A stretch of DNA of 34,974 nucleotides from positions 1 through 34,974 of the forward strand of contig JAFAHI010000591.1 in NCBI GenBank assembly GCA_019237325.1, written 5' to 3'. Below are positions 3,658 through 28,219 of this stretch, in pieces (the stretch's first letter is position 1; each line of letters starts with the position of its first letter). The position numbers were made by a program, and so were the translations under genes. The stretch is from Verrucomicrobiota bacterium (GTDB taxonomy: Bacteria; Verrucomicrobiota; Verrucomicrobiia; Chthoniobacterales; JAFAMB01). Below the pieces are notes generated by a model, which saw nothing but the letters and a program-made list of their open reading frames with translations, had not been told where the DNA came from and did not search any database.

Positions 3658-3975
3658 TTAAGGCTTAAGTTCGCCTTCCATTGGATACCCGCTGTCTTCC
3701 CAGTCCGCTATGCCTCCCGGATAATGCCACACGTTTTGAAAGCCGCGTTCAACGAATTGGTGATAGACCATAACACTTGCCGTACAACCGGGGTTAGAGC
3801 AGTAGACAATTATTTCCCCCTTCGGATTGAGTGTCTGGAAAAAAGCTTTTTCGAAGCGAATGGAGCCGGGAATCCGCTTTTCCCTAAACATCCACTCGTC
3901 CAAACAATTGACTAACGTGAATTCGGCGCGTTGGTCGAGCTTCTGCTTTAGCTCCTCGCGATTGATCGTATTCAT
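3658..3975 (-). CDS. Single-domain rhodanese-like protein
   Basis: This is a compact rhodanese-homology domain of 105 aa. It has the typical opening (REEL, then LVNCLDEWMF), the IPGSI segment near residue 36 and the active-site strand IIVYCSNPGCTAS. Cys59 is the predicted persulfide-forming nucleophile, and the C-terminal YPGGIADWEDSGYP is typical of the family. The frame is open upstream to 4200. The extra 75 residues are not rhodanese-like and AGGA stands about 7 nt before this internal ATG, so the shorter start is preferred. The active-site loop is the longer CSNPxCxxS form seen in a sub-branch of single-domain rhodaneses. It probably handles sulfane sulfur in the cytoplasm. The alcohol dehydrogenase gene follows directly. 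Confidence 0.82.
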   Translation of the reverse strand: MNTINREELKQKLDQRAEFTLVNCLDEWMFREKRIPGSIRFEKAFFQTLNPKGEIIVYCSNPGCTASVMVYHQFVERGFQNVWHYPGGIADWEDSGYPMEGELKP

Positions 3976-11250: not shown

Positions 11251-11310
11251 AACACCAGAGTGGGACCGTTGTTCAGCGCCTTAAAACCGAATGTTTGCCG
11301 TTAAATCAGC

Positions 11311-11337
11311 AAAAAAAAACAGACACTCTCGTGTCCG
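11311..11337 (-). terminator. Rho-independent terminator of the EPS operon
   Basis: Read on the minus strand, CGGACAC-GAGA-GTGTCTG forms a 7-bp stem (one G-U pair) closed by a GNRA tetraloop. Nine T residues follow immediately. It starts 46 bases after the stop codon of the last EPS gene, which is the right position and strand to end the long transcript. Confidence 0.85.
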
Positions 11338-11382
11338 TTCTTTCGGGCAAGCCTAATTTTCTGTCGAAGGCCGCGTTCTGCG

Positions 11383-12237
11383 CTAAGCAAAGACGACGGC
11401 CTTATTCGCATAACAGAGGATCCGATGATCCAAGTGCCAGCGCACGGCGCGGGACAAAACGATTCTTTCCAGATCGCGTCCTTTCTGGATGACGTCGTCC
11501 AGCTGGTCCGAATAAGTGATCCTGGTCACTTCCTGTTCTATTATTGGTCCTTCGTCGACACTTGGCGTTACATAGTGTCCTGTCGATCCAAGGAGTTTTA
11601 CCCCGTGGGTGAAAGCCTCATGGTACGGTTCTACCGCCGGAAACCCTGATAGAAACGATTGCCTTACGTTAATAATCTTCAGCGGGTATTTCGCGACAAA
11701 CCCCGCAGAGATCACTTGCAGGTAGCGTGCGAGCACAATCAAATCCACACTGTGACGCGCCAACAATTCCAGTTCCTCAGCCTCCACTTGTGCTCTTATC
11801 TGTGGAGTCACCGGTAGGTAGTAAAATGGCACACTGTAATATTCTGCCAACAGGGTTGCACTCTGATGATTGCTGATGATTAAGCCGATGTCACAGTCCA
11901 GCTCCCCGGTTTGATATCGATGCAGAAGATCTAATAAACAATGCAAATGATGAGAGACAAAGACTGCAACTGCAGGTGTCTTAGTGCAGTATTCGACCTC
12001 CCAGCTAAGCGAGAAACGCAAAGCAAAGGTGCCGAACTTTCTCCGAAAGCATGCTTCGTTTAAGACGAAATCCTCTAGACTCCACTCTACGCGCAGTAAG
12101 AGAAGGTCTAGGGCATTGTCCAGGTGTTCATCCCAGTCAATGATGTTCGCGCCATACTCACACAAAAAGTCGCTGATGGCTGTTCCGGTACCCTTCCGGT
12201 ATGGGCAGCTAATTCGCAAGACTGCAGTGTTTTTCAT
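11383..12237 (-). CDS. PurU-like formyltetrahydrofolate hydrolase homologue lacking the catalytic His
   Basis: The protein is 284 aa, like PurU. An N-terminal ACT domain (about 5-80; GANIIDWDEHLD) is followed by a formyltransferase-fold domain (about 88-275). PurU hydrolyses 10-formyl-THF to formate and THF. Asn123 (IISNH) and Asp228 (VDEGPIIEQE) of the catalytic triad are present. The third residue is not: the family's NIHHSFLP reads NVRQSFLS, placing Arg192 at the catalytic histidine. The change is clear in the DNA (AAC GTA AGG CAA). The enzyme is therefore either inactive in hydrolysis or has a new role, for example formyl-folate binding or transfer. It is the last gene of the EPS operon, just before the terminator, an unexpected place for housekeeping folate metabolism. 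Confidence 0.85.
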   Translation of the reverse strand: MKNTAVLRISCPYRKGTGTAISDFLCEYGANIIDWDEHLDNALDLLLLRVEWSLEDFVLNEACFRRKFGTFALRFSLSWEVEYCTKTPAVAVFVSHHLHCLLDLLHRYQTGELDCDIGLIISNHQSATLLAEYYSVPFYYLPVTPQIRAQVEAEELELLARHSVDLIVLARYLQVISAGFVAKYPLKIINVRQSFLSGFPAVEPYHEAFTHGVKLLGSTGHYVTPSVDEGPIIEQEVTRITYSDQLDDVIQKGRDLERIVLSRAVRWHLDHRILCYANKAVVFA

Positions 12238-12435
12238 TCGGTTAAATCTGCGTACTCGATACCCAGAAAACCAGGTCTCGAGGATTTACCATGCCAAGTC
12301 AGCAGGACCCCACAGGAGCGTTATACCATAGGCATTCAAACCCGCTTTCCGGGCTACAAAGAAGGTATTTCCCGTTATCCTTGAGCCGCCCCGTAGAAAT
12401 GAATACGGTTTGTTGCCGTGACTCTGGATAGGCAC

Positions 12436-13272
12436 TCACCAGTTTGCCTCGGAACGGAATCTGCCTTTACTCTTTACGAAGGCCAGGTCCACTTGTCCCA
12501 AAGCGCCGTCAAATGGTCTTCTCTGATACCCGGTAATGTCATAAAGCTCATATCCTCGATCGAACATGAACGATATGACTTCACGCGTGAGGGGTTGACG
12601 TGGCAGAAAGCTGAACAACGATGTCTCCAGAATGAATAGTTCTGTGCGGCCAAAGGTTGTGTTCTGCGCTCCTGAAAGAGCTTCTAGTTCAAATCCTTGG
12701 ATATCAAGCTTTACGAGATCGGGGAGGAATCCCGGGTAGGTCTCGGCGAGGACTGAATCTATCGTCACGATCTGGGTTTTACGTTGCTTGCCGGATCCGA
12801 GTTGGCTCCGATCCACTGGGGGAAGGAAGGAAGATCCATTGAGGTCTGACCAGATTGTCTGGACTAGCTCTCCAGGCTTGCGACCCGCTCCTGCCTTTAT
12901 GTAACGACAAGTCGGTAGGCTGCTGCACAGTTTAGATAGATACGGCTCCATCTCGTCTTGCGGCTCAATCATGATCACGGATGCATTAGGAAAGATGGAA
13001 AGCGCAAGACGGGTCCAGGCGCCCCGATTCGCGCCAACGTCAACAATACCGCGCGGGATAAAGCCGCGAGCCCGAATATTTTCAAGAAAGCTGACTAGCT
13101 CGCCGACTCCCCCGCCACGATTGCGTTTGATCTCAATTCCAAAGGAATCGAGTCCCGATTTAATCGCCGATTTAACCGCGTACTTCATACGACGAAATGT
13201 TCCATTGCCAGGTCTGATTGCCATTGTCGGCTGGCTAGGGACGCTCACATTTAAAACCGATCTGTTAACCAT
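12436..13272 (-). CDS. FkbM family methyltransferase
   Basis: This is a SAM-dependent methyltransferase of the FkbM family, 278 aa from the longest start. The SAM-binding motif DVGANRGAWT is at 78-87, an acidic residue follows strand 2 (MIEPQDE, Glu103), and LVKLDIQGFELEAL is the family's second hallmark. FkbM enzymes O-methylate sugars and polyketides. In this setting methylation of an EPS sugar is the natural role. The start is uncertain: Met17 (13224) aligns with the first residue of the neighbouring FkbM protein, and both then share the leader MKxAxKSAxxSGL. The gene lies 5 bases after its upstream neighbour and is probably translationally coupled to it. Confidence 0.85.
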   Translation of the reverse strand: MVNRSVLNVSVPSQPTMAIRPGNGTFRRMKYAVKSAIKSGLDSFGIEIKRNRGGGVGELVSFLENIRARGFIPRGIVDVGANRGAWTRLALSIFPNASVIMIEPQDEMEPYLSKLCSSLPTCRYIKAGAGRKPGELVQTIWSDLNGSSFLPPVDRSQLGSGKQRKTQIVTIDSVLAETYPGFLPDLVKLDIQGFELEALSGAQNTTFGRTELFILETSLFSFLPRQPLTREVISFMFDRGYELYDITGYQRRPFDGALGQVDLAFVKSKGRFRSEANW

Positions 13273-13277
13273 ATTTG

Positions 13278-14096
13278 CTATTTTATTCTTAGGAATGAGA
13301 ATTCAGAGCTCGTTTCAGAGACATGAAATAAATCAAATCCTGCATCTCTGAGGCTCTGGACGGACTTGACCGTAGTAGCAAGAGATTCGATTCCGGTGCG
13401 GTGATGAAACTCGATCAAAAGCTGCCTAATCGGCACCGGGCACTGGAGAAGCTCAGGAAGCACATCGTACTCAGCACCTTCCACGTCCATTTTCAGCAGG
13501 TCGATCGCTTCAGTGCCGAGGTTCGTGGCAATGGTCGACAGCCGGTGTATTGTCACTTCCGTTTGGGTTAGTTTCTCTTTCATGTGCTCCTTGTGAAGCG
13601 AGTACATGCCGCCTGAGGAAGGAGCAAAAAAATCGGCTTGACCATCGATGGTACCCAAGCCCCATGGGTGAAAGATATAGTTGACGGGAATATTCTGTGT
13701 GGCGAGCCATTCAATCGCCAGAGGCGACGGATCGAAGCCGTGAACGGCCGTCCCAAAGCGCTCAATCAGTTCCAGGTCGAACGATATGTCGTCTCCGACC
13801 CCGAAAGAATACACAATGCTACGGGCGTTAATCAACTCCGGCACAATCGTCCATCCCCCATAGATTGAGCCGAGATGCTTTTTTCTTGGGTGAGCATCGA
13901 GTTTGTAGATTACGTCTCGACCAGTCAGGAGTCGAACAACTCGTTTCGCCATCCTGGCGTACCGGCGGGGTGAGAACAAGTAGCTCTTGCCTAACTTGTA
14001 GCGCACAGGCACTTGCTCCTCACCAAGTCCAGACCTAGTTGCGGATTTGATCGCGCACTTCATACAGAGAACTCCATCGAGCGATGTGATTGGCAT
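13278..14096 (-). CDS. FkbM family methyltransferase, second copy
   Basis: This is a second FkbM-type methyltransferase, 272 aa. The SAM site is the variant SFGVGDDISFD at 97-107, with FDPSP at 121-125 and the family hallmark LLKMDVEGAEYDVL near residue 200. Outside these motifs it differs strongly from the next gene, so the two probably methylate different positions. Their N-termini nevertheless share the unusual leader MKCAIKSATRSGL. It likely modifies an EPS sugar in the cytoplasm before export. It follows the GT92-like gene after a 198-base gap in which no gene is seen. Confidence 0.82.
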   Translation of the reverse strand: MPITSLDGVLCMKCAIKSATRSGLGEEQVPVRYKLGKSYLFSPRRYARMAKRVVRLLTGRDVIYKLDAHPRKKHLGSIYGGWTIVPELINARSIVYSFGVGDDISFDLELIERFGTAVHGFDPSPLAIEWLATQNIPVNYIFHPWGLGTIDGQADFFAPSSGGMYSLHKEHMKEKLTQTEVTIHRLSTIATNLGTEAIDLLKMDVEGAEYDVLPELLQCPVPIRQLLIEFHHRTGIESLATTVKSVQSLRDAGFDLFHVSETSSEFSFLRIK

Positions 14097-14294
14097 GGTG
14101 GGCCTTCAAGTCTCCCCACGCGGATCGATTTGTCCTCCGCGTGGCGAGTAGCCATTATCAGCTGTTGAAAGCGATTAAATAACAGCGAGAATTGGTTTTA
14201 TCATAGCTGGCTTATGAGTGGGGTTTCGCCCTACCTACTCCCGTACTGGTCCGAGTACCTCCCGTGATAAATAGATGGTTTGAAATCGATTAAA

Positions 14295-15227
14295 TTATAC
14301 ATACGGCTCCTTGTATCCGATAACCGTCATGTAGTCGCGAATATCCGACCCGTAGGCATTGCGGACCCAATCGTTAAAAAGTGCATTATGAGCCAGAAAT
14401 TCAGACTCTACTCTATCTTTGCGTCTTGTTCTGTATTTGTATCCCTCTTTATCAACGAATCCAATGCCTAGCTTGGATAAATAATTATTTTTTGAACGGT
14501 ATATGTAATGACTAATTTCGATGTCATATTGATCAGCCTTTACAGAATACGTGCCTCGGACCGGTTTCCCGCTTAAATTCACTGCGCTGGCGAGTGCGTC
14601 GAAAATGAAATTGTGCGAGTTATAATAGCCCTTAACACACTTCGGTTTTGCGATTACCTTTACGTGAGGATCCGTTGACCGGCTAGAATAAACAAAATTA
14701 TTAGTGACAAGGCCGGTTGGCACGGTTTCATGAAATGAGCTACCAAAATAGCGGTAATTTATTGCGAGCGCAGGGGATCCATTTAATCTCGACAAGACGT
14801 TAAGCAAAAGCCCCCTTTGCCGCTCGACAATGAACTCATCAGCATCGATAAATGCGACCCATTTACTTTCTGACGCAAACTTGTCAAAAAAGTCACAGTA
14901 GCAACTTGGTGATGCCGGAACGGCGTTCCACGGTATCACGGTCGCCAAACCACGATCGATAAATGGCTGAATCGCCGCGTCGGGATTGTCGTTGCTGTTA
15001 TTATCGTAGAAATAGAAATGTTCTGCCCCGATTAACTTGTGGTGCGCGATAAATTCCGGCAAGAACCTCGCTTCGTTTTTGATCCGAGTGACAACGCTGA
15101 GAAAGTAGGTGGGGTGAGAAAGCCGCTGCCGATAGATTAATTTACGATGGGGAAGAGAGCTATAGAGTAAACCTATTAAGTTATAACGGAGCTCACTCTT
15201 ATGACGAAGAAGGATTTCTTTAAGCAT
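14295..15227 (-). CDS. Glycosyltransferase family 92-like protein (DUF23)
   Basis: This 310-aa protein has the signature of GT92/DUF23 glycosyltransferases. A GT-A type start is at 43-80 (VVTRIKNEARFLPEFIAHH, then FYFYDNNSND), and WVAFIDADEFI carries the metal-binding DAD at 128-130. It has no membrane segment and probably acts at the cytoplasmic face of the membrane. Known GT92 members add galactose in eukaryotes; the bacterial donor and acceptor are unknown. Codon use is more AT-rich than in the neighbouring genes, hinting at separate acquisition. It lies 86 bases after the upstream glycosyltransferase gene, on the same strand. Confidence 0.82.
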   Translation of the reverse strand: MLKEILLRHKSELRYNLIGLLYSSLPHRKLIYRQRLSHPTYFLSVVTRIKNEARFLPEFIAHHKLIGAEHFYFYDNNSNDNPDAAIQPFIDRGLATVIPWNAVPASPSCYCDFFDKFASESKWVAFIDADEFIVERQRGLLLNVLSRLNGSPALAINYRYFGSSFHETVPTGLVTNNFVYSSRSTDPHVKVIAKPKCVKGYYNSHNFIFDALASAVNLSGKPVRGTYSVKADQYDIEISHYIYRSKNNYLSKLGIGFVDKEGYKYRTRRKDRVESEFLAHNALFNDWVRNAYGSDIRDYMTVIGYKEPYV

Positions 15228-15313
15228 GATTCTTGCCTTCCAAGCGCGTTAAAAACTTCCGGATGAAGCCGGAGGCCTGTGGGTAGCGCTTCTCTTTATC
15301 TTCATCGATCAGT

Positions 15314-16594
15314 TCAGGCAGGCCTCAGCATAGTCTCAGGATTACAGGTTCTGGGACCGGCAAGCCATTTGACCAGCTCCTTACATTCACTCCGGCTACA
15401 AACCCAGCTGGCGCGTGGCAGTGACAAAACCGCGTTTTCGAAGTCGCGATAGGTTTCTGCTGTCAGAGTCGCAAAAAAACCGTTCAACGAGGGCGCAAGC
15501 GGATGGTTAAGCATGATGCCAACGCCCAGTTGTTTGAGAAAGCGCCCGGTTTCGACCGAAACTAGGGCCATGGGCACGGCTCCGTACAATCCACCTTCGT
15601 AAACGCGGTTGGGCAAAAGCCAGGACGAATTAAGCCCTTCTTCAAACATATCGATTGCCCAGCAGAAATGCACACCGCGATAGATGTCTGGCAAATCCTG
15701 CGGATTTCGATAGGGGCCCAGAAACTTTACGCCGGGAAGATCGCGAACTTTTTTTTCGAAATCACCGAATAAATTTCTAAGCGGTTTACCCCGGATGATC
15801 ACCTCGACGGTGCCTTCGCTTTGTTGCGCAAGCTCGCTAAGCAGGCGCAGACTGCGTGTGCAACGTATCATGCCGAACCATCCAATCACCCATGGTGGTC
15901 CCGGCTTCCGTGGCGGCATAACTTCCGGCGGTACATTTTCGTCATCGATGTGCAGCACTTTGTTTTCGACTAAACGGATCGGGATCTTTAAACGCGCGGT
16001 GCGCTGAAAGTATTGGCTCACGAATGCCGGTGAGCTAGTGACAACCGCGGTGGCGCGACGCGACAATTGTCGCTCGAGCCAGCGTAAAACCCAGCCAACG
16101 GGTCCTCGATTAAGCATAAGCCGGTGAATATCGAGACATTCATAGACCAGCACGGGGAGCGGTTTGCAAAGACTGCGTCCACACGTGGCGATTACCAGCA
16201 TGTCGATATTCCTTGCGATGATAACATCCGTGTCAGTGAATAAAGTCTGGTAGTGGCGCAGGCTGATGAGTTTTTGCGCTACAGAAATGATGCGCCTTAA
16301 GAATCTGGCATTTAAGGTCTGGCCGAAATCCACTGCCGGGCATTCAGCGACGGTTTCGACTGCCTGCGGCACACGCCGGAATCCGGCAGCGGTTACTTGG
16401 GCACCTCCGGCGCACAACATTGCGACGCGCCGATGGATAGCGGCGTCGGCCAAGTCTTGTGCTAGCACGAGGATTTTTAGCGCGCCAGATCTTGGATGTT
16501 CTGTCGCCGATGAATTGCGAAGAACGTTACCGACCGGTGTCTTCTGATTAGGGATGCGGGTCGATTCAAAAGCAGTATGATCTTGCTTGGCCAC
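15314..16594 (-). CDS. Glycosyltransferase, GT4-like GT-B fold
   Basis: This 426-aa protein has the layout of GT-B glycosyltransferases: an N-terminal Rossmann-like half starting KILVLAQDLADAAIHRR near residue 40, and a C-terminal half with GWFGMIRC and LPNRVYEGGLYGAVPMAL. The latter takes the place of the family's nucleotide-sugar binding E-x7-E motif. About 38 low-complexity polar residues precede the fold, so an internal start is possible. It probably adds one sugar to the lipid-linked EPS repeat unit. Donor and linkage cannot be read from sequence. It is 22 bases downstream of the GH16 gene in the same operon. Confidence 0.8.
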   Translation of the reverse strand: MAKQDHTAFESTRIPNQKTPVGNVLRNSSATEHPRSGALKILVLAQDLADAAIHRRVAMLCAGGAQVTAAGFRRVPQAVETVAECPAVDFGQTLNARFLRRIISVAQKLISLRHYQTLFTDTDVIIARNIDMLVIATCGRSLCKPLPVLVYECLDIHRLMLNRGPVGWVLRWLERQLSRRATAVVTSSPAFVSQYFQRTARLKIPIRLVENKVLHIDDENVPPEVMPPRKPGPPWVIGWFGMIRCTRSLRLLSELAQQSEGTVEVIIRGKPLRNLFGDFEKKVRDLPGVKFLGPYRNPQDLPDIYRGVHFCWAIDMFEEGLNSSWLLPNRVYEGGLYGAVPMALVSVETGRFLKQLGVGIMLNHPLAPSLNGFFATLTAETYRDFENAVLSLPRASWVCSRSECKELVKWLAGPRTCNPETMLRPA

Positions 16595-16616
16595 AAGAGC
16601 TTCCCTTCTTCAGATT

Positions 16617-17417
16617 TCACTTCTCCCACACACGCACCCACTGAACCTGTGTGATGGGCGGCAGCACCGTGGAGGCTGAGCCGTTGACGCCGCCAGGAGC
16701 CGCAGTCAGTATCAGTTGCATCGGCTGCCAGGTGGATGGAAAAGGCCGCACGCTGGCGACTTTGACGTTGTCCACGTACCAAGTGACTTGATCTTGAGTC
16801 CATAGGAGGCCATAGGTATGCCAAGCTCCAAGGACTGGGTGATTAACCGAAAAACGATGCGGATTATTTAGCTCGTCGCGCACCCCGCCATCTCCTGAAC
16901 TATTTGCGTGGAGCGTGCAAAAGGCGGCGCTAGGCGAACCGGGATCAGTCTCAATGATATCGATCTCGTTAGTCCAGCTCAGAGGATTCGATGCTCGCAC
17001 CAGGTTTCCGTAGACATGGGGACGATTCACGCAGAAGAGCCAGAAGGCAGACCAGTCGGTGCAGAGCATGCGCGCCTCGAAATAACCACCAAGGAACTGA
17101 GTGCCGCCACTAGCATCGTGGTACTGAGTGCAGAGATTTACATAATTTTTACTACCTGCCGTTATGGTTAAAATGCTATCACTGACACTGAAGGCGATGG
17201 GTGAAGGAATCGGTTCCCACCAAAGGCCGGCATTCCATTTGTGGCCGGTGGTGCCGTATCCGATATCCATTGGCCCCTTGAATTCCTCGTCGAATGTGAG
17301 GTTCTGGAAACCGGCACTCAGCGCCTGGCCTGGAGGCGCAACCTCAGAACTCACGGTACCGGAGTAGGTCGCTGATGTTAGGAGGAAGCCAATCAGGACT
17401 ATGGCGGTCCTGTTCAT
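16617..17417 (-). CDS. Secreted GH16 family glycoside hydrolase in the EPS operon
   Basis: This is a 266-aa paralogue of the 9174-9989 enzyme, with long identical stretches such as LCTQYHDASGGTQFLGGYFE. The catalytic motif EIDIIE is intact (Glu151, Asp153, Glu156). It differs in export: residues 1-24 form a plain Sec signal peptide without twin arginines. GH16 enzymes inside EPS operons usually cut the polymer to control chain length or release it, and that is the likely role here, in the periplasm or outside. The gene sits between the WecG/TagA-like and the GT4-like glycosyltransferase genes with short gaps, so it belongs to the operon. Confidence 0.9.
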   Translation of the reverse strand: MNRTAIVLIGFLLTSATYSGTVSSEVAPPGQALSAGFQNLTFDEEFKGPMDIGYGTTGHKWNAGLWWEPIPSPIAFSVSDSILTITAGSKNYVNLCTQYHDASGGTQFLGGYFEARMLCTDWSAFWLFCVNRPHVYGNLVRASNPLSWTNEIDIIETDPGSPSAAFCTLHANSSGDGGVRDELNNPHRFSVNHPVLGAWHTYGLLWTQDQVTWYVDNVKVASVRPFPSTWQPMQLILTAAPGGVNGSASTVLPPITQVQWVRVWEK

Positions 17418-17489
17418 AGCGTTTTTATTTAAGTGGACAATGGATGACTCTTTGCTTTTTTCGAAACGATCAGCCCTAAAATTGGAAGT

Positions 17490-18236
17490 CTAGGTCACCG
17501 CACTTCGTTCTCGATACTTGGCAATGACGGGAAGGAGGCGCAGCGCTCCCCAGTAACGCGGCACAAACTTGCGGGGTGAATGCAGACAGCGGCAGAGCCA
17601 TCCCAACATGAGTCTATCGGCCAACGGCGGAACACTCGCCTGTATTCCGGAGAAGAATGCTATGGCTGAGCCGACGCAGATAATGGAGGGGGAATAAGAG
17701 AGATTTTCTTTTAGATACAGGCCTAGTGGCTCTTGTATTCCACCGCCGATATTAACAATAACATATCTCGGTTTGTGGGTCTCGATCCAGCTTAGCAGCT
17801 CGGGATCCGAAACCGCTTCGCCTTTCGGGTAATGCGGAGCAACATAGCATTCCTGTGCCGCAACGGGGATGCCCTTTCTGTTTAACCAGGATCGATTAAT
17901 TTTTGCCTCCTCTTTTGAAGGCATGATCCACACGGAGCTTCCCTCGGTTCGCAGTTGACCGCTGGTCAGCAAAAGGCGAAGAAGTCGTGGTCCAGAGATA
18001 CGAGGTAACTTCTGGCCGGTAAAAAGTCTCCAGAGGATAACCATGAAAGAGCTGTCTGTGACGGCAAAATCACTTTTCTCGACGGATTGACGGTAGATCG
18101 GGTCAGTTGGCAGTTCAGCTAAAGCTGGTGCAGCTGGAGCGATAATGAAATGGCCTTCGGCGCACAACCGTAGAAGCTCTGACGTACTGCCTGTAAAAAA
18201 GTTAATCGCCAGCACGCGTTTGAAGTTTTGAACCAT
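17490..18236 (-). CDS. WecG/TagA/CpsF family glycosyltransferase (GT26)
   Basis: This is a GT26-type glycosyltransferase of 248 aa, the family length. The core SDFAVTDSSFMVILWRLF keeps the key Asp (Asp61) in a TDS context rather than the usual ADG. The later VNIGGGIQEPLGLYLKE and CVGSAIAFFSG segments match the family's GxPxQE and GxxFD regions in altered form. The family's early TxNP motif is replaced by APAAP. Members add the second sugar to an undecaprenyl-linked acceptor at the membrane, and the C-terminal Arg- and Trp-rich part (WLCRCLHSPRKFVPRYW) fits membrane association. It probably extends the product of the initiating transferase. Confidence 0.82.
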   Translation of the reverse strand: MVQNFKRVLAINFFTGSTSELLRLCAEGHFIIAPAAPALAELPTDPIYRQSVEKSDFAVTDSSFMVILWRLFTGQKLPRISGPRLLRLLLTSGQLRTEGSSVWIMPSKEEAKINRSWLNRKGIPVAAQECYVAPHYPKGEAVSDPELLSWIETHKPRYVIVNIGGGIQEPLGLYLKENLSYSPSIICVGSAIAFFSGIQASVPPLADRLMLGWLCRCLHSPRKFVPRYWGALRLLPVIAKYRERSAVT

Positions 18237-18308
18237 AATTGTATTTGGTGTTGTTGAGGGCTAAGACAGGGGGGAGGAGGACGCCGCGTGCGTCTGGATA
18301 GAACGTAC

Positions 18309-19466
18309 CTAGGCGAGACGCCGCTTCGAACAGTTGAATACGACTAACAAGAATAGGACCGAGTACGTGTTTCCGAAACTGAAGGCCCGGACTTCGAACG
18401 ATCCATATACGATGTAGGTAACGATGATGGTCGCCGATAGAGGATACTCGAGGAGTCGGCGAATAGGCTTGAAGACAAAAGAAATCGCCTCACTCATCAT
18501 GAGTAGATAACTCGCTAATCCGGCCACGCCCATGTCTGCGAGCATCCCCAGATAGGCGTTATGAGCTGGCATTTGGTCGGGCATCAGTAGTGTGTGGCCC
18601 TTGAAACCGACACCAAAGACGGGTTCTGCTTCCCAGAGACTAATGGCAGCAGCCCATAAGTCGTCGCGTCCGGATCCGCCGGTAGCCAGGCCACGATACT
18701 TATCGTCGAGCATGAAGAGGCCGTCGAAGATTTTGCCGATCGGATTCAATACATCGAACCCGGTCAGAGTCATTACGGCACAAAGGGCCATGCCACCGAA
18801 AAAGGCTAAGAGGCAATAAGTAGAAAACTCTTTCGATCGGTGGCGCCATGTCCAAGAGACAACCGCGAACATCAGCGCGATGCCTGCGGCCAGAAGTGAG
18901 TCTCGCGATTCGAGCACAACCATTGAGTAGAGCGGTAGAGCGGATAGCGTTGCGGCCCAGACTATCGATCTAGCACTTAGCGCGCCGATGAAGGCGACTA
19001 AGGCCATCATTCCAACATAGTTCGGGTTCTCTGGCGGATCTACGCGTCCCCAAGTGACGGGCGCCGTAACGAGAATGATCGGCAACAGGAGGTTAACAAA
19101 AATGGAGGTGAGAACCAGCGTCTTTCTAAAATCGAGATCGATTCTCATCGTGATAAGATACAACGAGAAAAAAAGCAGCAGAGAACTCAAGATATTACCC
19201 GCAATAAAAACCCAGTCATATCGGTGCGCGTTAAAGAGGTAACTCGCCAATATGCTAAGATTCAACAGGAAAGCACCGAGCGAGACCAGCGGAGATACAG
19301 TGGCTATGACTGGTTTCTTGTAAGTTAGTAAAACCAATGTGATTGCTCCAGCAAGCAGTGGGAAAATGAGTGGAGCCGCACCTTCTGCACCCGCGAAGTG
19401 TATAATGTAAAAGGAAGCAGAAGCCCATATCGCCACCACGATTTCGTTTAGCCAGCGGTTAGTCAT
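18309..19466 (-). CDS. O-antigen ligase/polymerase family protein (Wzy-like)
   Basis: This is an integral membrane protein of 385 aa with about 10-12 hydrophobic helices. A large periplasmic loop before the last helices contains GVGFKGHTLLMPDQMPAHNAYLGMLADMG, the Wzy_C/O-antigen ligase signature whose HNAYL histidine is essential in family members. In a Wzx/Wzy pathway this protein would polymerise flipped repeat units in the periplasm. Its start overlaps the end of the flippase gene by 8 bases, indicating translational coupling. Ligase activity cannot be excluded from sequence, but the EPS context favours polymerase. Confidence 0.82.
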   Translation of the reverse strand: MTNRWLNEIVVAIWASASFYIIHFAGAEGAAPLIFPLLAGAITLVLLTYKKPVIATVSPLVSLGAFLLNLSILASYLFNAHRYDWVFIAGNILSSLLLFFSLYLITMRIDLDFRKTLVLTSIFVNLLLPIILVTAPVTWGRVDPPENPNYVGMMALVAFIGALSARSIVWAATLSALPLYSMVVLESRDSLLAAGIALMFAVVSWTWRHRSKEFSTYCLLAFFGGMALCAVMTLTGFDVLNPIGKIFDGLFMLDDKYRGLATGGSGRDDLWAAAISLWEAEPVFGVGFKGHTLLMPDQMPAHNAYLGMLADMGVAGLASYLLMMSEAISFVFKPIRRLLEYPLSATIIVTYIVYGSFEVRAFSFGNTYSVLFLLVVFNCSKRRLA

Positions 19467-20982
19467 TCGCGGGTCGCTCCGGGCGGTTATTGAAAAAGGC
19501 GCCGACGGCGGAAACGCCCAAGGTTCTCGCCTCCGACAAAAGATCGTGACCGATGTAGAGATAGAGAGCAGCGACCACCAGGATCCAGAGAGAGAAAAAG
19601 GCTAACGTATAGGCGATGGCTAAGGGGGTCGATTGCCGAAGGAAATCGAAGGGCTCAAAGCGTACGAAAAGCCATAAGCTCATGCCCAATACGGCGCTCA
19701 CCAGTGCGGCTAGGGAGCCTCGGACGCCTGCAGAGGTCGTGGTGCTGGGGGTTCGCAGCATGAATGAAAGTGAAATCGTGATCTCAGCAACCAGGATCAG
19801 GATCAGCCAAAGCAGTACGGATTTTGTTAGCAGAGCGATTCCGGAAAAAATCAGCAAACAGATGATGTAAAGATATTGTCGTCTGGCGATCTCGTGCACT
19901 TTTCCGTGCCGCAACATTAAGGCTTGCAGGATTTGGTAGGCATAAAGCGGGCTAGCAAGACCGAAAGTGATGGCGATTTGCCCGTATAGAGTGGGGTCTG
20001 ACCCGACCAGCCAAAAAGATGCTAGGCGGAAATTATCTGCGACGACTATGCCGGTAATTACAGAAGCGAAGAACGCCGCGAACAATACGCACAGGGTGAA
20101 CTGAGTTTCCGCAAGGACTGCCCGATGCGATCCTTTGAGCCATACGTATTGGACCGAGGCGTAACGCGACAACTGCAGAATCATTTGGCGCGCGGTTCCG
20201 AACAGCGCACGTAACGCGACATAGATGGTGACCGCGACAGGCTGGGCAATGGCAGACAGCACCAACACAGGAACGTATGCGCGCATCCAACTTGAAGCAG
20301 GGTCGACCATGGTATACCGGGCGATTCTCAGCGTTCTGAATGACAAGCCTGCTGGCATTGGCTCCAAGAGGCACAAGAGCCCGGTGCGGCGGCAGAGCCT
20401 GCCCTGCTGTGCGATGGCGAAGAGTCCGCTCAAACACCAGATCCAGGCTAAGACCTGCGGCGGCGAATGGAAGAAGGTGAGGGCGGCTATGGCCAGGCAT
20501 AATCGCGCGGCAGCCAGCAAGAGGTAACCAGCTTCGGCCTGACGGTACAACTCGAGCGAATCCAGGTACATCACTCTGACGTACACGATGGTTTCGAGGG
20601 CGACCCCTACGACCAGAGCAGCGCGCCACCAGAGGTAAGGCGTTTTTGCGTAAAGACAGGTGTAGCCCAGGTCTAGACCGATCAACGTTACAGTAGCCAC
20701 GCAAATGAGGATCCTGATCCAAGCCCACAGATGTTGGAACTCGGTTTTGGCCTGCTCGTCGACAGGATTGTGCGCGTAACGGATGAGTTCCGCATGACCG
20801 GCAGTACGCAATCCACAATCCGCGACGCTCACCATGGTGGCGACAGCAAGCATAGCGTACCAATTAGCGGTGCTGATATGACCCCAAATCCGGATTTGGA
20901 TCGGAAGCAGCACAACCTGATTTAAAAGCAGTACGCCCTGAGTCAGCATCGTCAGGGAAAAAAACTGGAAGAACTTCCGCAC
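19459..20982 (-). CDS. Polysaccharide flippase-like membrane protein (Wzx-like)
   Basis: This 507-aa polytopic protein has roughly 12-14 predicted membrane helices spread over its whole length, short basic loops and no enzymatic motif. This is the usual appearance of MOP-superfamily Wzx flippases, which move undecaprenyl-linked repeat units across the inner membrane. The first helix region (SLTMLTQGVLLLNQVVLLPIQ) and mid-protein YALRALFGTAR-type stretch fit the family. The family is defined more by topology than by sequence, so the call rests partly on position between the Wzc-like and Wzy-like genes. Its start lies only 5 bases after the kinase gene. Confidence 0.78.
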   Translation of the reverse strand: MRKFFQFFSLTMLTQGVLLLNQVVLLPIQIRIWGHISTANWYAMLAVATMVSVADCGLRTAGHAELIRYAHNPVDEQAKTEFQHLWAWIRILICVATVTLIGLDLGYTCLYAKTPYLWWRAALVVGVALETIVYVRVMYLDSLELYRQAEAGYLLLAAARLCLAIAALTFFHSPPQVLAWIWCLSGLFAIAQQGRLCRRTGLLCLLEPMPAGLSFRTLRIARYTMVDPASSWMRAYVPVLVLSAIAQPVAVTIYVALRALFGTARQMILQLSRYASVQYVWLKGSHRAVLAETQFTLCVLFAAFFASVITGIVVADNFRLASFWLVGSDPTLYGQIAITFGLASPLYAYQILQALMLRHGKVHEIARRQYLYIICLLIFSGIALLTKSVLLWLILILVAEITISLSFMLRTPSTTTSAGVRGSLAALVSAVLGMSLWLFVRFEPFDFLRQSTPLAIAYTLAFFSLWILVVAALYLYIGHDLLSEARTLGVSAVGAFFNNRPERPAND

Positions 20983-20987
20983 GGATT

Positions 20988-23378
20988 TTAGGTCTTATCG
21001 GCGGGCGTGGTCTGGCTGATCCGCGGGTGGGCGCTAGTTGTCGCTCCGAAGAGTTTTGCCTTTGGCTTAAGTTTTTGTTTCTTGCCGCGATGGGCATAAC
21101 AGTTGGCGTAACCGGAAAAGTAATAGTGCTTACCTGAACGGAGCGGCATTCGGTTAAAAACGAAACCCTGAAGGCTGCTGCCCGCCTGCGTAAGTAGAGC
21201 GCGTGCCCTGGCGACGGCTGCCGCCGGGGTTTTGATAGCACGGACGACTAAGCAGACCGATTGAACGTGTCTGCAAATGAGTTGAGTATCGCTAACTGCA
21301 TTGACTGGAGCACTATCTAGCACTATGCGAGCGAATTGCGTCCCCAGCTCATCCAATAAGCTAACAAAATCGCAGGAAGCAAATAGTTCAGATGGTCTTG
21401 ATGTTCGCCGGCCTGCAGGGAGCATGAACAGATTCTCGATGCCGGTCGGGCTACAGCAATCTATAGCGTTTACCCGTCCAGCAAGACAATCGGTTAGTCC
21501 CTCCGCTTTCGTATCAGCTAGTGCGATATTACTTAGTCTTGGTCGTCGGACATCGGCATCGATCAAGAGCGTGCGTAGGCCAGTCTGCGCAAGAGCTACC
21601 GAATAGTTAAGAGCGCAAAAGCTTTTGCCTTCCTTTGGATTCGCACTAGTGAAAAGTATGGTTTTATGTTTCGCGTGGAGCCCGAGAAAAGAGATCGTTG
21701 TTCGCAACGACCGGAATGCTTCGGCTTCGTACGAAGTCGGATCGCTGGTCAAGGCAGGTTCTTTCTTACGGCTAATTCGTTGGGATTCTGGGATAGCCGC
21801 TAGCGCAGTAACCCCCAAAATTCCTTCCGCCTGATCGATCGTCCGGATAGAATTGTCGACCATGTCGATAATAATTACCAGGCCGCCTCCGCAGGTGATG
21901 CCGATTAAAAGCGCCAACAGTAAAGTCTTTAACTGATCCGGTTCGGCCGTTTTTGCCACCAGTGGAGTTGACACAATCCGAATAGTTGCGTCCGAATTTC
22001 GGTTCGCGATATTGGAGACGTTCATTGGGCTCAAGGCCGATTGGTAGAGCCCGCGACCGGCGTCAACGTCAGGAGGTGGAGCGGTATGGGAGACCGGGAT
22101 CTCGTTAGGCGCGGCTGTCTTTGGTCCCTGCTCTTGGATTGCTTTCGCAAGCTGGGCTTCCGTGGCTTTCTTGTTCTCGTACGTTTGTGTCACTGAGTGT
22201 GCCGCGTCGAGTACCGCTCTATCTATTGCTTGCTTAAATCTTATGAGCTGGCTCCTGGCCGGATGCCTTGATCGTTGGTAGTCACTGAGTTGTTGACGCA
22301 GACTGGCAACGTCAGGAAAGGAGGCAATACTGGGCAAAGCTAACAACTCTTGCGGGTCCGTTGACCGCTGGATGACCGCGGCGTCCGCTTCCAGTTTCAT
22401 GCGCTCGCTCTTGGCTTCAGTCAGCTTGAGATTTAATTCTTTGAGCTTATCGCCAGCGATTTTTTGGTTGTTTTCGGATAAGGTCGATCCGTGATTTTCG
22501 GGAAACTTCTGGACTGGCTGTTGGGCATCTAAGAGCTTCGTTTCAAGCCGGTTCGTTTCTTGGCCGGGGCCGGCCTGCGTGTGAAGTCCTTGCGAGTTCT
22601 GATCGATGAAAGCTTTGGCGATCGCTTCAGCAAGCTGGGCAGCTCGCTTGGCATCGGTATCTTTAACACTGATATCGATGAGCCTGGTTCCATGGCGGAC
22701 CGCAGTTTTGACTCTCGGTCGAAATCTAGCGACCAGTTCGCTATCCAAATAGACTGAGCCATCTTTCTTTGGCGGCGCGAATGACGGATCCTTTTCCAGT
22801 CCGGCAGATGTGAGGACGCCTAACAGCAGCGTGTCGTTCAGGATGGCTTGCTCGACGGTTTTGATGTTTTCGTCCAGGTTGACATCTTGCTCGGTCCCGC
22901 TATCGCCAGAGTCAAAGTCCTGGAAATTGTTAAGGCGTGCGTTCTCGTAACGCTTTTTTTCAAAGTCGTAATTTGCTGAGTGCTCGTTAGCAGAGATTTG
23001 CGCTTTCTGAAAATCGAGGGCAGAGATTAACCCTCGTTGGGCCAGACGTTCGTCTGCTTGTAACTCCGCCAGCGCGCTATCGCGATCGGCCTGGGCTTTG
23101 GTCAAGGTGGCTTGCCTTTCCAACACTTCTGCCTGCAGGGCGGTTTGCAGTCGGATCATCTTGGCCTGGCCGCTTTTGCTTTCAACCTCGATGACGGTGT
23201 GGGATTCATACAATTTCGGGGTTAATTGCAAATAAACGCCTGCCGCGACCAGGCTCAGCACAGAAAAAAGCAGGATCAGCCACGCTTTTGATAGGAACAG
23301 ATTAAAGAAATGACCAAAGCCGAATGATCGCGCCAAGTCTGGATTATCTAGTTGGGTTGAGACAGCTCTTGTGTGCAT
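20988..23378 (-). CDS. Wzc-type polysaccharide co-polymerase and tyrosine autokinase
   Basis: This 796-aa protein is a fusion of a Wzz-type chain-length domain and a BY-kinase domain. TM1 is at about 32-50, followed by a long periplasmic coiled-coil-rich region and TM2 at about 490-510. The cytoplasmic kinase domain (about 540-745) shows Walker A (SANPKEGKS), Walker A' (LLIDADVRRP) and Walker B (IVLDSAP). The C-terminal tail has a short tyrosine cluster (HYYFSGYANCY) that would be the autophosphorylation site. Such proteins set polymer length and couple synthesis to export. The usual partners, a Wza exporter and a Wzb phosphatase, are not in the window. It follows the NRPS gene by 18 bases. 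Confidence 0.92.
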   Translation of the reverse strand: MHTRAVSTQLDNPDLARSFGFGHFFNLFLSKAWLILLFSVLSLVAAGVYLQLTPKLYESHTVIEVESKSGQAKMIRLQTALQAEVLERQATLTKAQADRDSALAELQADERLAQRGLISALDFQKAQISANEHSANYDFEKKRYENARLNNFQDFDSGDSGTEQDVNLDENIKTVEQAILNDTLLLGVLTSAGLEKDPSFAPPKKDGSVYLDSELVARFRPRVKTAVRHGTRLIDISVKDTDAKRAAQLAEAIAKAFIDQNSQGLHTQAGPGQETNRLETKLLDAQQPVQKFPENHGSTLSENNQKIAGDKLKELNLKLTEAKSERMKLEADAAVIQRSTDPQELLALPSIASFPDVASLRQQLSDYQRSRHPARSQLIRFKQAIDRAVLDAAHSVTQTYENKKATEAQLAKAIQEQGPKTAAPNEIPVSHTAPPPDVDAGRGLYQSALSPMNVSNIANRNSDATIRIVSTPLVAKTAEPDQLKTLLLALLIGITCGGGLVIIIDMVDNSIRTIDQAEGILGVTALAAIPESQRISRKKEPALTSDPTSYEAEAFRSLRTTISFLGLHAKHKTILFTSANPKEGKSFCALNYSVALAQTGLRTLLIDADVRRPRLSNIALADTKAEGLTDCLAGRVNAIDCCSPTGIENLFMLPAGRRTSRPSELFASCDFVSLLDELGTQFARIVLDSAPVNAVSDTQLICRHVQSVCLVVRAIKTPAAAVARARALLTQAGSSLQGFVFNRMPLRSGKHYYFSGYANCYAHRGKKQKLKPKAKLFGATTSAHPRISQTTPADKT

Positions 23379-23396
23379 TTGAATTAGAAAGGTGAA

Positions 23397-26027
23397 TCAT
23401 TTGCCGGCGAGGCTTGATTTGATACACTCCGCGAGTTTCGTGGCGAGAATCTGTACGCTTCTATCGTCCCAAAACAGAGTTGTGTGGCTGCCGGGCACGA
23501 CATGAACCTCGACTCCACCCTGTGCGATTGAGCTCCAGCCGAAATCGGGCTGGACCTCGAAGTCGATGGGTTGATCCATCGAGCGGAACAGCGTGACCTT
23601 ACCGGCGTAGGGTTTCGGTTTATAAACAAGGGAAGCGCGCCAGTTAGCCATTCGGATTTTCAGGGCTGGAAGCTGTGCAGGATCGTTCCGTCCACGCGTT
23701 GCCAGCATCTGGTAGCGTTCATTCCATTCGAGTAGCCGGGCGCCAAACTTGCCTCCGATGTAGGCTGCGGAGAATTCAAAGATACCCTCTACGGTGACTC
23801 CCTTCGACAAGAGACGCGGGATCCTGTAGCGAGCCACCTGCGTCCACGATCGCAACCGTGGTCGATTGCCGGGATTAGCAGCGTCAAAGAGTGCTAACAA
23901 GGCTACCTCTTCTCCGAGCGCGTTTAACTCTCGGGCGATCTCATAGCTCAACAGCCCTCCGAACGAATAACCGCCCAGTAAATATGGACCATGGGGCTGG
24001 ATCTTACGGATTTCCTTGAGGTAACAGGCGGCGGTCGCTTCGATCGAAGTCGGAGTGGAAAGGCTGCCGTCGAGTCCCTGTGCCTGGAAACCGTAGAAAG
24101 GTTGGTCTTTGCCGAGGAACTCTGAGAGCTGCCGATAGAAAAGTACATTGCCGTCCCCACCGTGAATCGCGAAGAAAGGTCGATTCCTGCCTTGTAGTTG
24201 GATCGCAACCAGCGGGTTCCAGTCCCGTTCAGAAGCCCCTAATCCGATTTTCTGGGCTAGCTTCTCGATTGTCGGCGCCTCAAAGAGAGTTGCCAGTGGG
24301 AGCCGTTTCCCGAGAGCCTTATTTATGTCCACAAATACTGATATTGCCTGTAGAGAGTTACCGCCGAGTTCGGAGAAGAAATTGTCGGTGACGCCAATCG
24401 GATGATGCCTAAGCACCCTTTCCCAGATCGCGATGAGTTGGGTTTCGAGAGCATTCCGTGGCGCAACTGGCCGAGTTCCGCGGGGAGCAATCGCTGGTTC
24501 CGGGAGTGCTTGCCGGTTGACTTTGCCATTAGGAGTCAAGGGGAGTTTATCAAGGAGAACCAATACGGAAGGAACCATGTAGGCGGGTAGAGTTTGCTGC
24601 GCGTGCTGGAGCAGGTCATCTGAGCTGACGCCGGTGGCAACGACGTAAGCCAGCAGACGCTCTTGATGCACGACTACGACACAGTCGCTGACGGCCGGAT
24701 GCTTTCGCAGGACTGCGTCGATTTCGCCTAACTCTATTCGCAGCCCGTGCAGCTTAACTTGATCATCGATTCGTCCGTGAAATTCGACGACTCCATCTTC
24801 TCGGTAGCACGCTAGATCGCCCGTCTTGTAAAGTGGGCCTTCGCCAAATGGATTGGGCACGAACGCCTTGTTTGTCATGTCAGGAAGATGCAGGTATCCA
24901 AGCCCTAGCTGTGCGCCGCCTATATATAGTTCACCCAGCGTTCCCCGACCGACTGGCTCCATCTTGTCGTCGAGGAGGTAGAGTTGTACCTCTGGAAGCG
25001 GCAAGCCGAGTGGAACGTTTGAAGTTAGCTCATCCCCTGCGCGGCATTTCCACGTGGTCACCGCGACCGTCGATTCCGTCGGTCCGTACAGATTGCAAAG
25101 TTCGCTGTCTGGCAATTTAGAAAAGAAACGCGCGACCGAACGCGAAGGCAGAGTTTCGCCCCCGCAAAACACTCGTTTGAGTGAGCGACACGAATCAGCA
25201 TTAGGATGCTCCAGAAATAAGGCTAGGGAAGACGGAACAAAATCGATTACCGAAATGTTTTCCGAAGTGATGAGCGCAACTAGATAGTCCGGATCGACTT
25301 CAAATCCTGGTCGGGCCAACACCATCGTTGCGCCGGTGAACAAAGGCCAAAAAAGTTCCGGTATCGAAAAATCGAACGTGTAAGCCGACCTCTGCACGAA
25401 GCGATCTTCCGGGCACAAAGGATAAGCTTCCTGCATGCGGTACAAGAAGCTGTACACCGCGCGGTGCGGGATCATTACCCCTTTTGGTTTTCCCGTCGAC
25501 CCGGAGGTATAGAGGACATAGGCCAAGCTCTCCGAGCTGAGTTCGGCAGGAATTGCGCGCCCAATTGCCGGAGACTCTTCTTCTAGCGCGAGAATTGGTA
25601 TCTGGAGTTCAGAAGACAACTTCCTCCTTAGCTCATCCTGTAACAGGATGGCGGCCGGCCTGGCGTCCTCAATAATGACCTCAAGTCGCTGTGCCGGGTG
25701 CTCAGGATCTAGCGGCAGGTAGGCCGCGCCGGCTTTGAGGATGGCCAATATGCCAATAACCATTTCCGGGGAGCGTTGGGATAGTAGAGCAACCAAGGCG
25801 CCGGGTCCTACCCCCGCGGTTTGTAGCCGACAGGCAATTGCATCAGACGCACTATCTAATTGCCGATAGCTTATTGACTGGCCCTCGTGAATTATCGCTA
25901 TGGTCTCAGGCGCCTCGGCTGCCTGTCTGGTAAACATCTGATGAAGCAGTATGCCGGTAGGCTGTGGAGCACCGCATTGAAGGTCGTCAACAGCCGGCAA
26001 AGCGACAGATAGTTTCGGCGAGAGCAT
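23397..26027 (-). CDS. Single-module NRPS: adenylation, carrier and thioesterase domains, no condensation domain
   Basis: This 876-aa protein has three domains. The adenylation domain (about 29-510) shows A3 TSGSTGKPKG at 174-183, A5 NLYGPTE, A8 GRIDDQVKLHGLRIELGEI and the A10 lysine Lys502. Asp219 in FDFSIPE occupies the position that binds the amino group in alpha-amino-acid-activating domains. A carrier domain follows (about 525-595, LGGNSL with the phosphopantetheine Ser558). A type I thioesterase is last (about 615-870, GYSFGG with Ser688, Asp715 and His848). It should activate one amino acid, load it on the carrier, and release or transfer it through the thioesterase. No condensation domain, second module or MbtH partner is present. 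It lies between the sugar epimerase and Wzc genes in the same operon, suggesting aminoacylation of the polysaccharide or of its lipid-linked precursor. Confidence 0.92.
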   Translation of the reverse strand: MLSPKLSVALPAVDDLQCGAPQPTGILLHQMFTRQAAEAPETIAIIHEGQSISYRQLDSASDAIACRLQTAGVGPGALVALLSQRSPEMVIGILAILKAGAAYLPLDPEHPAQRLEVIIEDARPAAILLQDELRRKLSSELQIPILALEEESPAIGRAIPAELSSESLAYVLYTSGSTGKPKGVMIPHRAVYSFLYRMQEAYPLCPEDRFVQRSAYTFDFSIPELFWPLFTGATMVLARPGFEVDPDYLVALITSENISVIDFVPSSLALFLEHPNADSCRSLKRVFCGGETLPSRSVARFFSKLPDSELCNLYGPTESTVAVTTWKCRAGDELTSNVPLGLPLPEVQLYLLDDKMEPVGRGTLGELYIGGAQLGLGYLHLPDMTNKAFVPNPFGEGPLYKTGDLACYREDGVVEFHGRIDDQVKLHGLRIELGEIDAVLRKHPAVSDCVVVVHQERLLAYVVATGVSSDDLLQHAQQTLPAYMVPSVLVLLDKLPLTPNGKVNRQALPEPAIAPRGTRPVAPRNALETQLIAIWERVLRHHPIGVTDNFFSELGGNSLQAISVFVDINKALGKRLPLATLFEAPTIEKLAQKIGLGASERDWNPLVAIQLQGRNRPFFAIHGGDGNVLFYRQLSEFLGKDQPFYGFQAQGLDGSLSTPTSIEATAACYLKEIRKIQPHGPYLLGGYSFGGLLSYEIARELNALGEEVALLALFDAANPGNRPRLRSWTQVARYRIPRLLSKGVTVEGIFEFSAAYIGGKFGARLLEWNERYQMLATRGRNDPAQLPALKIRMANWRASLVYKPKPYAGKVTLFRSMDQPIDFEVQPDFGWSSIAQGGVEVHVVPGSHTTLFWDDRSVQILATKLAECIKSSLAGK

Positions 26028-26132
26028 TGTTTCGTTGAGTCGAGTGGGTGATTCAGAAGCCGCAGCTCTTATTTTTTGCGACCAACTATCATTGCTCGCA
26101 CCGTCGTTTCAGATGTTTGGAAGGTTCTATCC

Positions 26133-27233
26133 TCAAAGTTGATATTCCTCCAATTGGGCGTGGGTCGATTTGTCTAAGGAAAACACTTGCGAGCGATCTG
26201 CGTGTGGCGCCGTTCTCCCGTCCCAGCTCCATTTTGAAAACAAGGAAGCGTTTGCGGTTATCTGGTCGTAGATCCAGCGATAGGTAAGCTCCATTCCGTC
26301 CCGCAACGATGTTGACGGTTCCCAGCCCAGCACTTTTCGAGTCAATGTGTTGTCGCTGTTGCGCCCGTTAACACCCTTGGGAGCCGAAACGTTGTATCTC
26401 CTCTCGAGCTTGATCCCAGCGATCTCCTCGACGATGTCGACTAGCTGGTTAATCGATACCAGCTCGCTGCTGCCGATATTAAGCGGATCAGCAAAGTCAC
26501 TTTCCATTAGCATCCGGCTGCCCTTCACACAGTCAGTGATGTACATGAAGCTGCGCGTCTGCTTGCCGTCGCCCCAGATCTCGATTTCGCGTCTGCCAGA
26601 AAGTTTTGCTTCGATCACTTTTCGGCAGATGGCTGCTGGCGCTTTCTCGCGTCCACCCTTGTAGGTTCCATGCGGGCCATACACATTGTGATACCTGGCC
26701 GTTCGCGTAACCAGTCCGTAGTCTTCGCGGAAATGGCGGCTCATCCGTTCGCTGAAGAGCTTTTCCCACCCGTATCCGTCCTCTGATAGAGCCGGATACG
26801 CGTCTTCTTCTTTAAGCGCCGTTACGTTCGAGTCAGTTTGCTTATCGCCGTTGTAGACACAAGCTGAGGAAGAGAAGAAAAACCGTCCCACACCGGCTTC
26901 TTTCGCGGCGATGAGGAGGTGTGTATTAATCAGCACACTTAGCATGCACGCGCCTTTGTTTAGCTCGATGAAACCCATCCCTCCCATGTCCGCAGCAAGA
27001 TTGTAGACCATCGCGATTTTCTCGGTTACTTCCCGGCACGCGTCTAAGTTTCTCAGGTCTAGGGTTAGGTTTTCCACGTCAACAAAGAGCTGATACCATT
27101 CCGAGAACGGTTTTATGTCCACCGCCCGAATGTGAAAACCATCTTCGCGAAACGCCTTTACGAGATGGCCACCGATGAAACCGCCGGCCCCTGTGACCAG
27201 AATCCGATTATCCTTGCTCATTGTCTTCGTCAT
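26133..27233 (-). CDS. GDP-mannose 3,5-epimerase-like NAD-dependent epimerase
   Basis: This is an extended short-chain dehydrogenase of 366 aa that resembles plant GDP-mannose 3',5'-epimerase more than UDP-sugar epimerases. NAD binds at TGAGGFIG (14-21). Cys125 (SSSACVY), Tyr154 and Lys158 match the plant enzyme's Cys145, Tyr174 and Lys178 in spacing, and KGGREKAPAA carries Lys197, equivalent to its Lys217. AADMGGMGFI is another shared signature. The reaction converts GDP-D-mannose to GDP-L-galactose and GDP-L-gulose, so the EPS may contain an L-hexose. The start is Met1 or Met5. It has an extra C-terminal tail of about 25 residues. A 316-base gap separates it from the antiterminator gene upstream. 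Confidence 0.88.
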   Translation of the reverse strand: MTKTMSKDNRILVTGAGGFIGGHLVKAFREDGFHIRAVDIKPFSEWYQLFVDVENLTLDLRNLDACREVTEKIAMVYNLAADMGGMGFIELNKGACMLSVLINTHLLIAAKEAGVGRFFFSSSACVYNGDKQTDSNVTALKEEDAYPALSEDGYGWEKLFSERMSRHFREDYGLVTRTARYHNVYGPHGTYKGGREKAPAAICRKVIEAKLSGRREIEIWGDGKQTRSFMYITDCVKGSRMLMESDFADPLNIGSSELVSINQLVDIVEEIAGIKLERRYNVSAPKGVNGRNSDNTLTRKVLGWEPSTSLRDGMELTYRWIYDQITANASLFSKWSWDGRTAPHADRSQVFSLDKSTHAQLEEYQL

Positions 27234-27549
27234 CTTTTCGTTATTAGCTCCGAACCGGGCTACTCGGGGTACTGGAGCTCACATTGTTAGTTCTGCTCTA
27301 AGTAGAATGTTCGCGTTAGTCCCCGGCCCACTTGTGAAAAAAATCCGAAAAGGTTCGCTCTATGGGGAGATTACCGGTCCCTTGCAAAGCAGCAGAAATG
27401 GCCATTGCCACGGGCTCGCCAATAGTTTTTCCCAGCGCAGGGAAGCTCGAGCGCCCATAAGCAGAGAGATGTTCAAAAATCGCAATTTAAAGCGCGCTCA
27501 TCTACCGTTACCCACGCTGATATCCGCTTACTTCTTCTCATGACCTCCG
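27234..27549 (-). promoter_or_regulatory. Long untranslated gap downstream of the antiterminator gene
   Basis: No gene is supported in these 316 bases, unusually long for this tightly packed operon. It directly follows the NusG-like gene and precedes the epimerase. It could hold a secondary promoter or a leader recognised by the antiterminator. On the minus strand a GGTAACGGTAG stretch (about 27499-27511) faintly recalls the ops element of RfaH targets, but the match is poor. Confidence 0.3.
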
Positions 27550-28116
27550 TCAGATGAGTAGCAGATGCTCGGCGCTGGTTTCAGTATGAAGGCTGCGTCC
27601 CATCCATTGAATCAGAATTTGCACGCGCTCCTTGGCTGTGATGAGTCGCGTAACCGAACCTTCTAACCCTTGGAACGGACCCTGGGTAATCTGGACCTGC
27701 GCTCCAGGCTGCAGTGTTTGATCAATTTCCACAACTTCATTTTCATCTGTGCGCTTTCTGATTTCGCTGATCAACGCATCAGGTAAGAGGGCCAGACGAT
27801 CCCCAAATTGTACGAAGCCGATAATACCATGTTCCTGTCTTATTCGGCGATGTAGGGCCGCGTAGTTAAATCGAGCGAAGAGGTACCCTGGAAACATGCA
27901 TTCAACGAACCAGACGAGCCCACGAGTGGTAAGCTTTCTAAAACGCACCCGAGGGCAGAAAGCTTCCACTTCAGAAATCTGGCGCAAGCATTTCGCTGCG
28001 ATATGTTCTCGTTTAGGTTGGGCGCGTAAGCAGAACCATAAGCTAGTGGGTTGGTCGTTCCAAATCTCGCGCGGAGTTAGAAGCATGTTGACCGGGTCTG
28101 CCTTGGATGATTGCAT
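27550..28116 (-). CDS. NusG-family transcription antiterminator (RfaH/LoaP-like)
   Basis: This is a specialised NusG paralogue of 188 aa. An NGN domain (about 26-125) begins WFCLRAQPKREHIAA and includes the typical MFPGYLFARF. A KOW domain closes the protein (about 135-188, GAQVQITQGPFQGLEGSV). Proteins of this type ride on RNA polymerase and suppress termination in long operons for polysaccharides or secondary metabolites. It is the second gene of an 18-kb EPS operon, the usual arrangement for such dedicated factors, and probably acts on its own operon. It lies 103 bases after the initiating transferase gene. Housekeeping NusG is ruled out by the lack of a neighbouring secE or ribosomal protein genes. 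Confidence 0.9.
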   Translation of the reverse strand: MQSSKADPVNMLLTPREIWNDQPTSLWFCLRAQPKREHIAAKCLRQISEVEAFCPRVRFRKLTTRGLVWFVECMFPGYLFARFNYAALHRRIRQEHGIIGFVQFGDRLALLPDALISEIRKRTDENEVVEIDQTLQPGAQVQITQGPFQGLEGSVTRLITAKERVQILIQWMGRSLHTETSAEHLLLI

Positions 28117-28219
28117 AGGCTGCTGATGACTTTAGGTAGGACTCGCGTCAGTTAGGCGTTCGGCTCGTACGCTAATTCAAGTTTTTCGCACAAGTGGTAA
28201 TCGCGTTGCCTGCCGTCGA

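Follow-up and report, generated by a model that had tools for sequence, protein, structure and literature searches.

Formyltetrahydrofolate deformylase (PurU) and GAR formyltransferase (PurN) are the described systems closest to the protein studied here. The catalytic residues named for these enzymes are a histidine and an aspartate, His108 and Asp144 in E. coli PurN and His106 and Asp142 in PurU (human numbering) (PMC3261824). Purine-pathway paralogues without a catalytic residue have precedent in PurF′ of some Crenarchaeota, which lacks the catalytic cysteine and is kept beside the intact enzyme (PMC3261824). We have analyzed a window of 34,974 nucleotides (the whole stretch of DNA under study, contig JAFAHI010000591.1 of a soil-type Verrucomicrobiota bacterium), which carries a PurU paralogue with an arginine at the position of the catalytic histidine. 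Like PurF′, it is a paralogue of a nucleotide/folate enzyme that is without a catalytic residue and has an intact copy in the same genome. However, several species conserve PurF′, which lies beside purine genes, whereas the PurU paralogue of the window is a singleton.

The gene is a single intact ORF of 284 amino acids on the minus strand (11383..12237), and its ATG lines up with the point where the nearest relatives begin (MKNTA...). The protein scores 307 bits against the PurU equivalog model TIGR00655, above the cut-off of 285.95; its score against Pfam Formyl_trans_N is 103 bits. Its relatives in the PDB are all formyltetrahydrofolate deformylases, and it shares a full-length alignment with PurU (TIGR00655; PDB 3w7b, 3o1l, 3obi, 3nrb, 3lou and 3n0v). 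An AlphaFold2 model, built with eight relatives as input, has a pLDDT of 90.7 and matches the six PurU structures with TM-scores of 0.91-0.92 and Z-scores of about 32-35 over 283 residues, including the ACT-like region. PurN shares the Rossmann-type formyltransferase domain with residues 88-284 (Z about 23-24) but, unlike the window protein, has no ACT region, and the window protein has no equivalent of PurN His108. These results bear out the first-pass annotation of a PurU homologue with an intact frame.

The active-site motif of the window protein, N-V-R-Q-S-F-L-S-G-F-P-A-V-E-P-Y-H, is encoded at 11620..11670 (minus strand). The family motif N-[IV]-H-H-S-F-L-P thus reads N190-V-R192-Q193-S-F-L-S197, with Arg192 (codon AGG) in place of the catalytic histidine and with further changes at the motif's adjacent His, its Pro and its Gly. 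Histidine occupies the catalytic position in 59 of the 59 other PurUs compared, leaving aside one homolog (L067) described below. The PurU motifs S-N-H and P-Y-H are kept, as are Asn190 before the histidine position and Asp228 within L-D-x-G-P-I (codon at 11551..11553, minus strand). The first-pass annotation had named Asp228 and Asn123 as the remaining catalytic residues. Asp228 stands, whereas Asn123 is the Asn of the S-N-H motif, conserved in itself and outside the Asn-His-Asp set, in which the asparagine is Asn190. We take Asn190 to be the counterpart of PurN Asn106. The weakest predicted region of the model is the active-site loop (mean pLDDT of 64 in block 191-200).

The histidine loss is one among several changes, and the core observation of the earlier annotation is both correct and stronger than it was stated there. 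In an alignment of 61 PurUs, 48 columns are near-invariant (at least 97% uniform with the window sequence left out). The window protein differs at 11 of them (D13Y, F46L, M173L, H192R, H193Q, P197S, G201A, I216L, A218S, L227V and H242Y), compared with 4 in the next worst sequence and 0 or 1 in most. A PurU of family f69 (L063, 1501-2340) differs at 4 near-invariant columns and has G-N-R in place of S-N-H, with an intact catalytic motif. It had also been proposed that the ACT domain and overall fold are kept. The predicted PurU-like fold does extend over the N-terminal ACT-like region (residues 1-85; 11983..12237, minus strand), but the ACT sequence is not kept: Tyr replaces the invariant Asp13, Leu stands in the F46 column, and the Pfam ACT model (PF01842), which scores 31.9 bits in the nearest relative (L035), does not match the window protein (P0001) even at an E-value of 1. 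The loss of this match also weakens the suggested folate-sensing role through the ACT domain.

A normal PurU elsewhere in the genome, which the first-pass annotation had advised looking for, is present. Contig C450 of the genome bin (785 contigs, 78% complete) encodes a second PurU, which has an intact motif (NVHHSFLPAF) and a TIGR00655 score of 332.6 bits, and hydrolysis is therefore covered in this genome. The bin also holds a PurN-like gene with NIHPSLLP (C467). In the tree, four PurUs of family f18 form the sister group of the window copy (support 100/97), while the PurU on C450 falls among those of the genome's own family, f1. The end branch of the window copy is 1.17 against a median of 0.16, and such a long branch is placed less securely than its support values imply; the identities nevertheless agree with it (best 54% to f18, 35-41% to f1). 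A recent duplication of the C450 PurU was rejected on this placement. Horizontal acquisition is the simplest reading of the origin of the window copy, and an old duplication followed by losses is a possible alternative. In the sister family f18 and its order, all 11 genomes were searched, and none holds a relative above 54% identity. No convincing repeats flank the window gene.

A motif scan covered 84,980 species, each represented by one genome, and used a pattern in which the His codon was replaced by any codon with C, G or T as its second base. The remaining positions of the pattern fit 33 of the 60 PurUs compared, so about half of the family was surveyed. The scan matched 38 stretches, under a pattern that leaves out His-to-Tyr, Asn, Asp and Gln changes and in a set that may omit entries close to the window's genome, and only one of these is a PurU. 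This homolog, from the Phycisphaerae MAG OFTM258 (L067, 2670-3584, minus strand; NIRHSFLPAF), has the His-to-Arg change at the same position as the window protein, but only that column of the 48 is altered, its codon CGC is one step from CAC, and it is unrelated to the window copy in the tree. A glycosyltransferase-like ORF (1363-2601) adjoins it on the opposite strand. When the pattern was relaxed and run on 388 genomes from the phylum, the window gene was the only PurU, and the five other matches are not PurU-like. None of the motif-scan matches in viral contigs reads as PurU. Separately, three viral-classed contigs from IMG/VR (L144, L145 and L147, each at 3001-3819) carry near-identical PurU genes in which NIHHSFLPGF is intact; this may be a metabolic gene carried by phages. 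An Arg clade linked to EPS genes, as the first-pass annotation had envisaged, was thus not found in the roughly half of the family surveyed, and the window PurU is probably a singleton and not a conserved part of the sugar pathway.

The codon-position pattern of the window gene matches that of ordinary PurU pairs and is not level as under drift. Differences from L035 at codon positions 1, 2 and 3 are 0.38, 0.26 and 0.68, compared with 0.38, 0.25 and 0.57 in an ordinary pair of similar identity (L035 and L046). There are no stops or indels in the frame. The replacements are conservative, with a mean BLOSUM62 score of +0.33 (about -0.2 to +0.4 in ordinary pairs, -0.5 in simulated drift). When neutral drift was simulated from L035 to the observed identity, none of 300 runs remained stop-free. 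The Arg192 codon is also hard to reach by drift: CAT to AGG changes all three bases and was seen in 0.3% of drift runs, and an easier route to AGG is an arginine held long enough for synonymous change. Together with the predicted fold, these features argue against free decay and support the earlier view that the gene is maintained or repurposed and no plain pseudogene.

We favor the reading that the window gene encodes a second, divergent PurU paralogue, catalytically impaired but kept as a folded protein, that is, a pseudoenzyme, and we place about half of our confidence in it. In this reading, the divergent copy, likely obtained from or held in common with a distant lineage of verrucomicrobial type, has lost the histidine that formyl-THF hydrolysis requires as well as part of its ACT effector site. 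We infer that the protein no longer hydrolyzes 10-formyl-THF and that its remaining role may be to bind a folate or folate-related ligand in the kept cleft, where Asn190 and Asp228 are present and the pocket changes are only conservative (M173L, I216L, A218S and L227V). It could then serve as a binding, buffering or partner protein, and its position behind the EPS genes would most likely be recent and without functional meaning. Against a pseudoenzyme, this is the only known sequence of its kind, and long-term conservation therefore cannot be shown; the low confidence of the model at the active-site loop also counts against it.

The main rival, which we consider possible though clearly less probable, is that a redundant, horizontally acquired purU copy is in early decay, with selection relaxed so recently that no stop has yet arisen. 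The intact PurU on C450 makes the copy redundant, the changes reach invariant residues of both the catalytic site and the ACT region, and no PurU was found in three other genomes (G001, G003 and the same-genus G002), which gave only PurN- and Fmt-like scores. Furthermore, the rate of change at invariant columns (24%) is about that at moderately conserved columns (19% and 23%), a flat profile that also fits a late relaxed phase. However, only 3-5% of runs were stop-free in drift to 76-80% identity, and 3% for the amount of drift that would explain the 24% change at invariant columns. The conservative replacements and the three steps from CAT to AGG also speak against early decay, and a maintained, impaired protein is favored over it.

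It is rather unlikely that the protein is still a formyl-THF hydrolase in which Asp228, Asn190 and water act without the histidine. The score above the PurU equivalog cut-off and the kept Asn190 and Asp228 are consistent with activity, as is the same His-to-Arg change in the otherwise canonical surroundings of the Phycisphaerae PurU. On the other hand, histidine and aspartate are the catalytic residues named for both PurN and PurU (PMC3261824), the motif is also altered at its second His, its Pro and its Gly, and the catalytic histidine is shared by the 59 other PurUs compared. Slightly less probable still is a neofunctionalized PurU in which Arg192 would form a new anion or ligand site, so that the protein would serve the EPS cluster as a regulator that binds folate or nucleotide, or as a transferase of new chemistry. 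For this gene, the automatic label "formyltetrahydrofolate deformylase" is probably incorrect. If the protein binds folate without hydrolysis, it would illustrate a one-carbon pseudoenzyme retained alongside an intact copy, and would caution that the curated PurU model gives its name to proteins lacking the catalytic histidine. As a singleton without a conserved neighborhood, it is a modest finding.

The location downstream of EPS genes on the same strand, noted earlier, is confirmed. The EPS cluster upstream of the paralogue (12436..29716, minus strand) encodes a sugar transferase, an RfaH-like protein, an epimerase, an A-T-TE NRPS-like protein, a Wzc-like kinase, a flippase-like protein, an O-antigen ligase/polymerase, a WecG-like protein, a GH16, a GT4, a GT92-like protein and two FkbM methyltransferases. 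No terminator-like or promoter-like minus-strand site is listed in the 198-bp gap between the paralogue and the first of these methyltransferases, FkbM1 (12238..12435, minus strand), and a putative intrinsic terminator, the hairpin GGACACGAGAGUGUCU followed by nine U, lies 3′ of the gene (11309..11345, minus strand; z of -3.2 for the surrounding 86 nt). The paralogue may therefore end the EPS transcript, and read-through from the EPS genes into it is possible as judged from these signals. In the same-genus genome G002, the operon is conserved from the sugar transferase through FkbM1, with amino acid identities of 70-88%, and has no PurU; the next 302 bp, which run to the end of the contig, are unrelated to the window, and a PurU gene beyond those 302 bp, on an unassembled stretch, is possible. 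The DNA after FkbM1 in G002 is not repeated elsewhere in that genome and thus gave no sign of an insertion sequence. The nearest PurUs, in families f18 and f20, have no match to the window's EPS genes within about 10 kb, which speaks against the proposed EPS link.

The first-pass annotation had suggested formyl transfer to an EPS amino sugar or to an NRPS-bound amino acid, and this appears quite improbable. The shared operon strand, the hairpin placed after and not before the gene, and the A-T-TE protein within the cluster would suit it. However, the G002 operon lacks the gene, so that a conserved place in an amino-sugar EPS cluster is not seen, and Arg192 breaks the Asn-His-Asp set that such an enzyme needs. 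No aminotransferase was recognized among the annotated genes of the window, and an amino-sugar acceptor is thus without a source there. The sugar formyltransferases ArnA and WbkC are only distant structural matches (Z 16-17, compared with 35 for PurUs), and a search of one literature library on PurU with EPS and on sugar N-formyltransferases returned nothing relevant. A sequence or assembly error in the metagenome bin, fragmented and incomplete as it is, is very improbable, since scattered errors could not account for changes at 11 invariant columns together with a codon altered at all three bases while the frame stays open, and the identity of the contig's EPS genes to those of a same-genus genome indicates that the contig is correctly binned.

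The EPS cluster itself also varies. An RfaH/NusG-like antiterminator gene (27550-28116) sits between the epimerase and the sugar transferase, and the syntenic gap in G002 (L134, 13792-14034) is only 242 bp long and has no such gene. Similarly, the second FkbM methyltransferase (13278-14096) is absent from the syntenic operon in G002, and the 3′ part of the cluster is therefore variable. Two similar GH16 glycoside hydrolases are found in the window, one inside the EPS cluster (16617-17417) and the other just past the PurU paralogue on the other strand (9174-9989).
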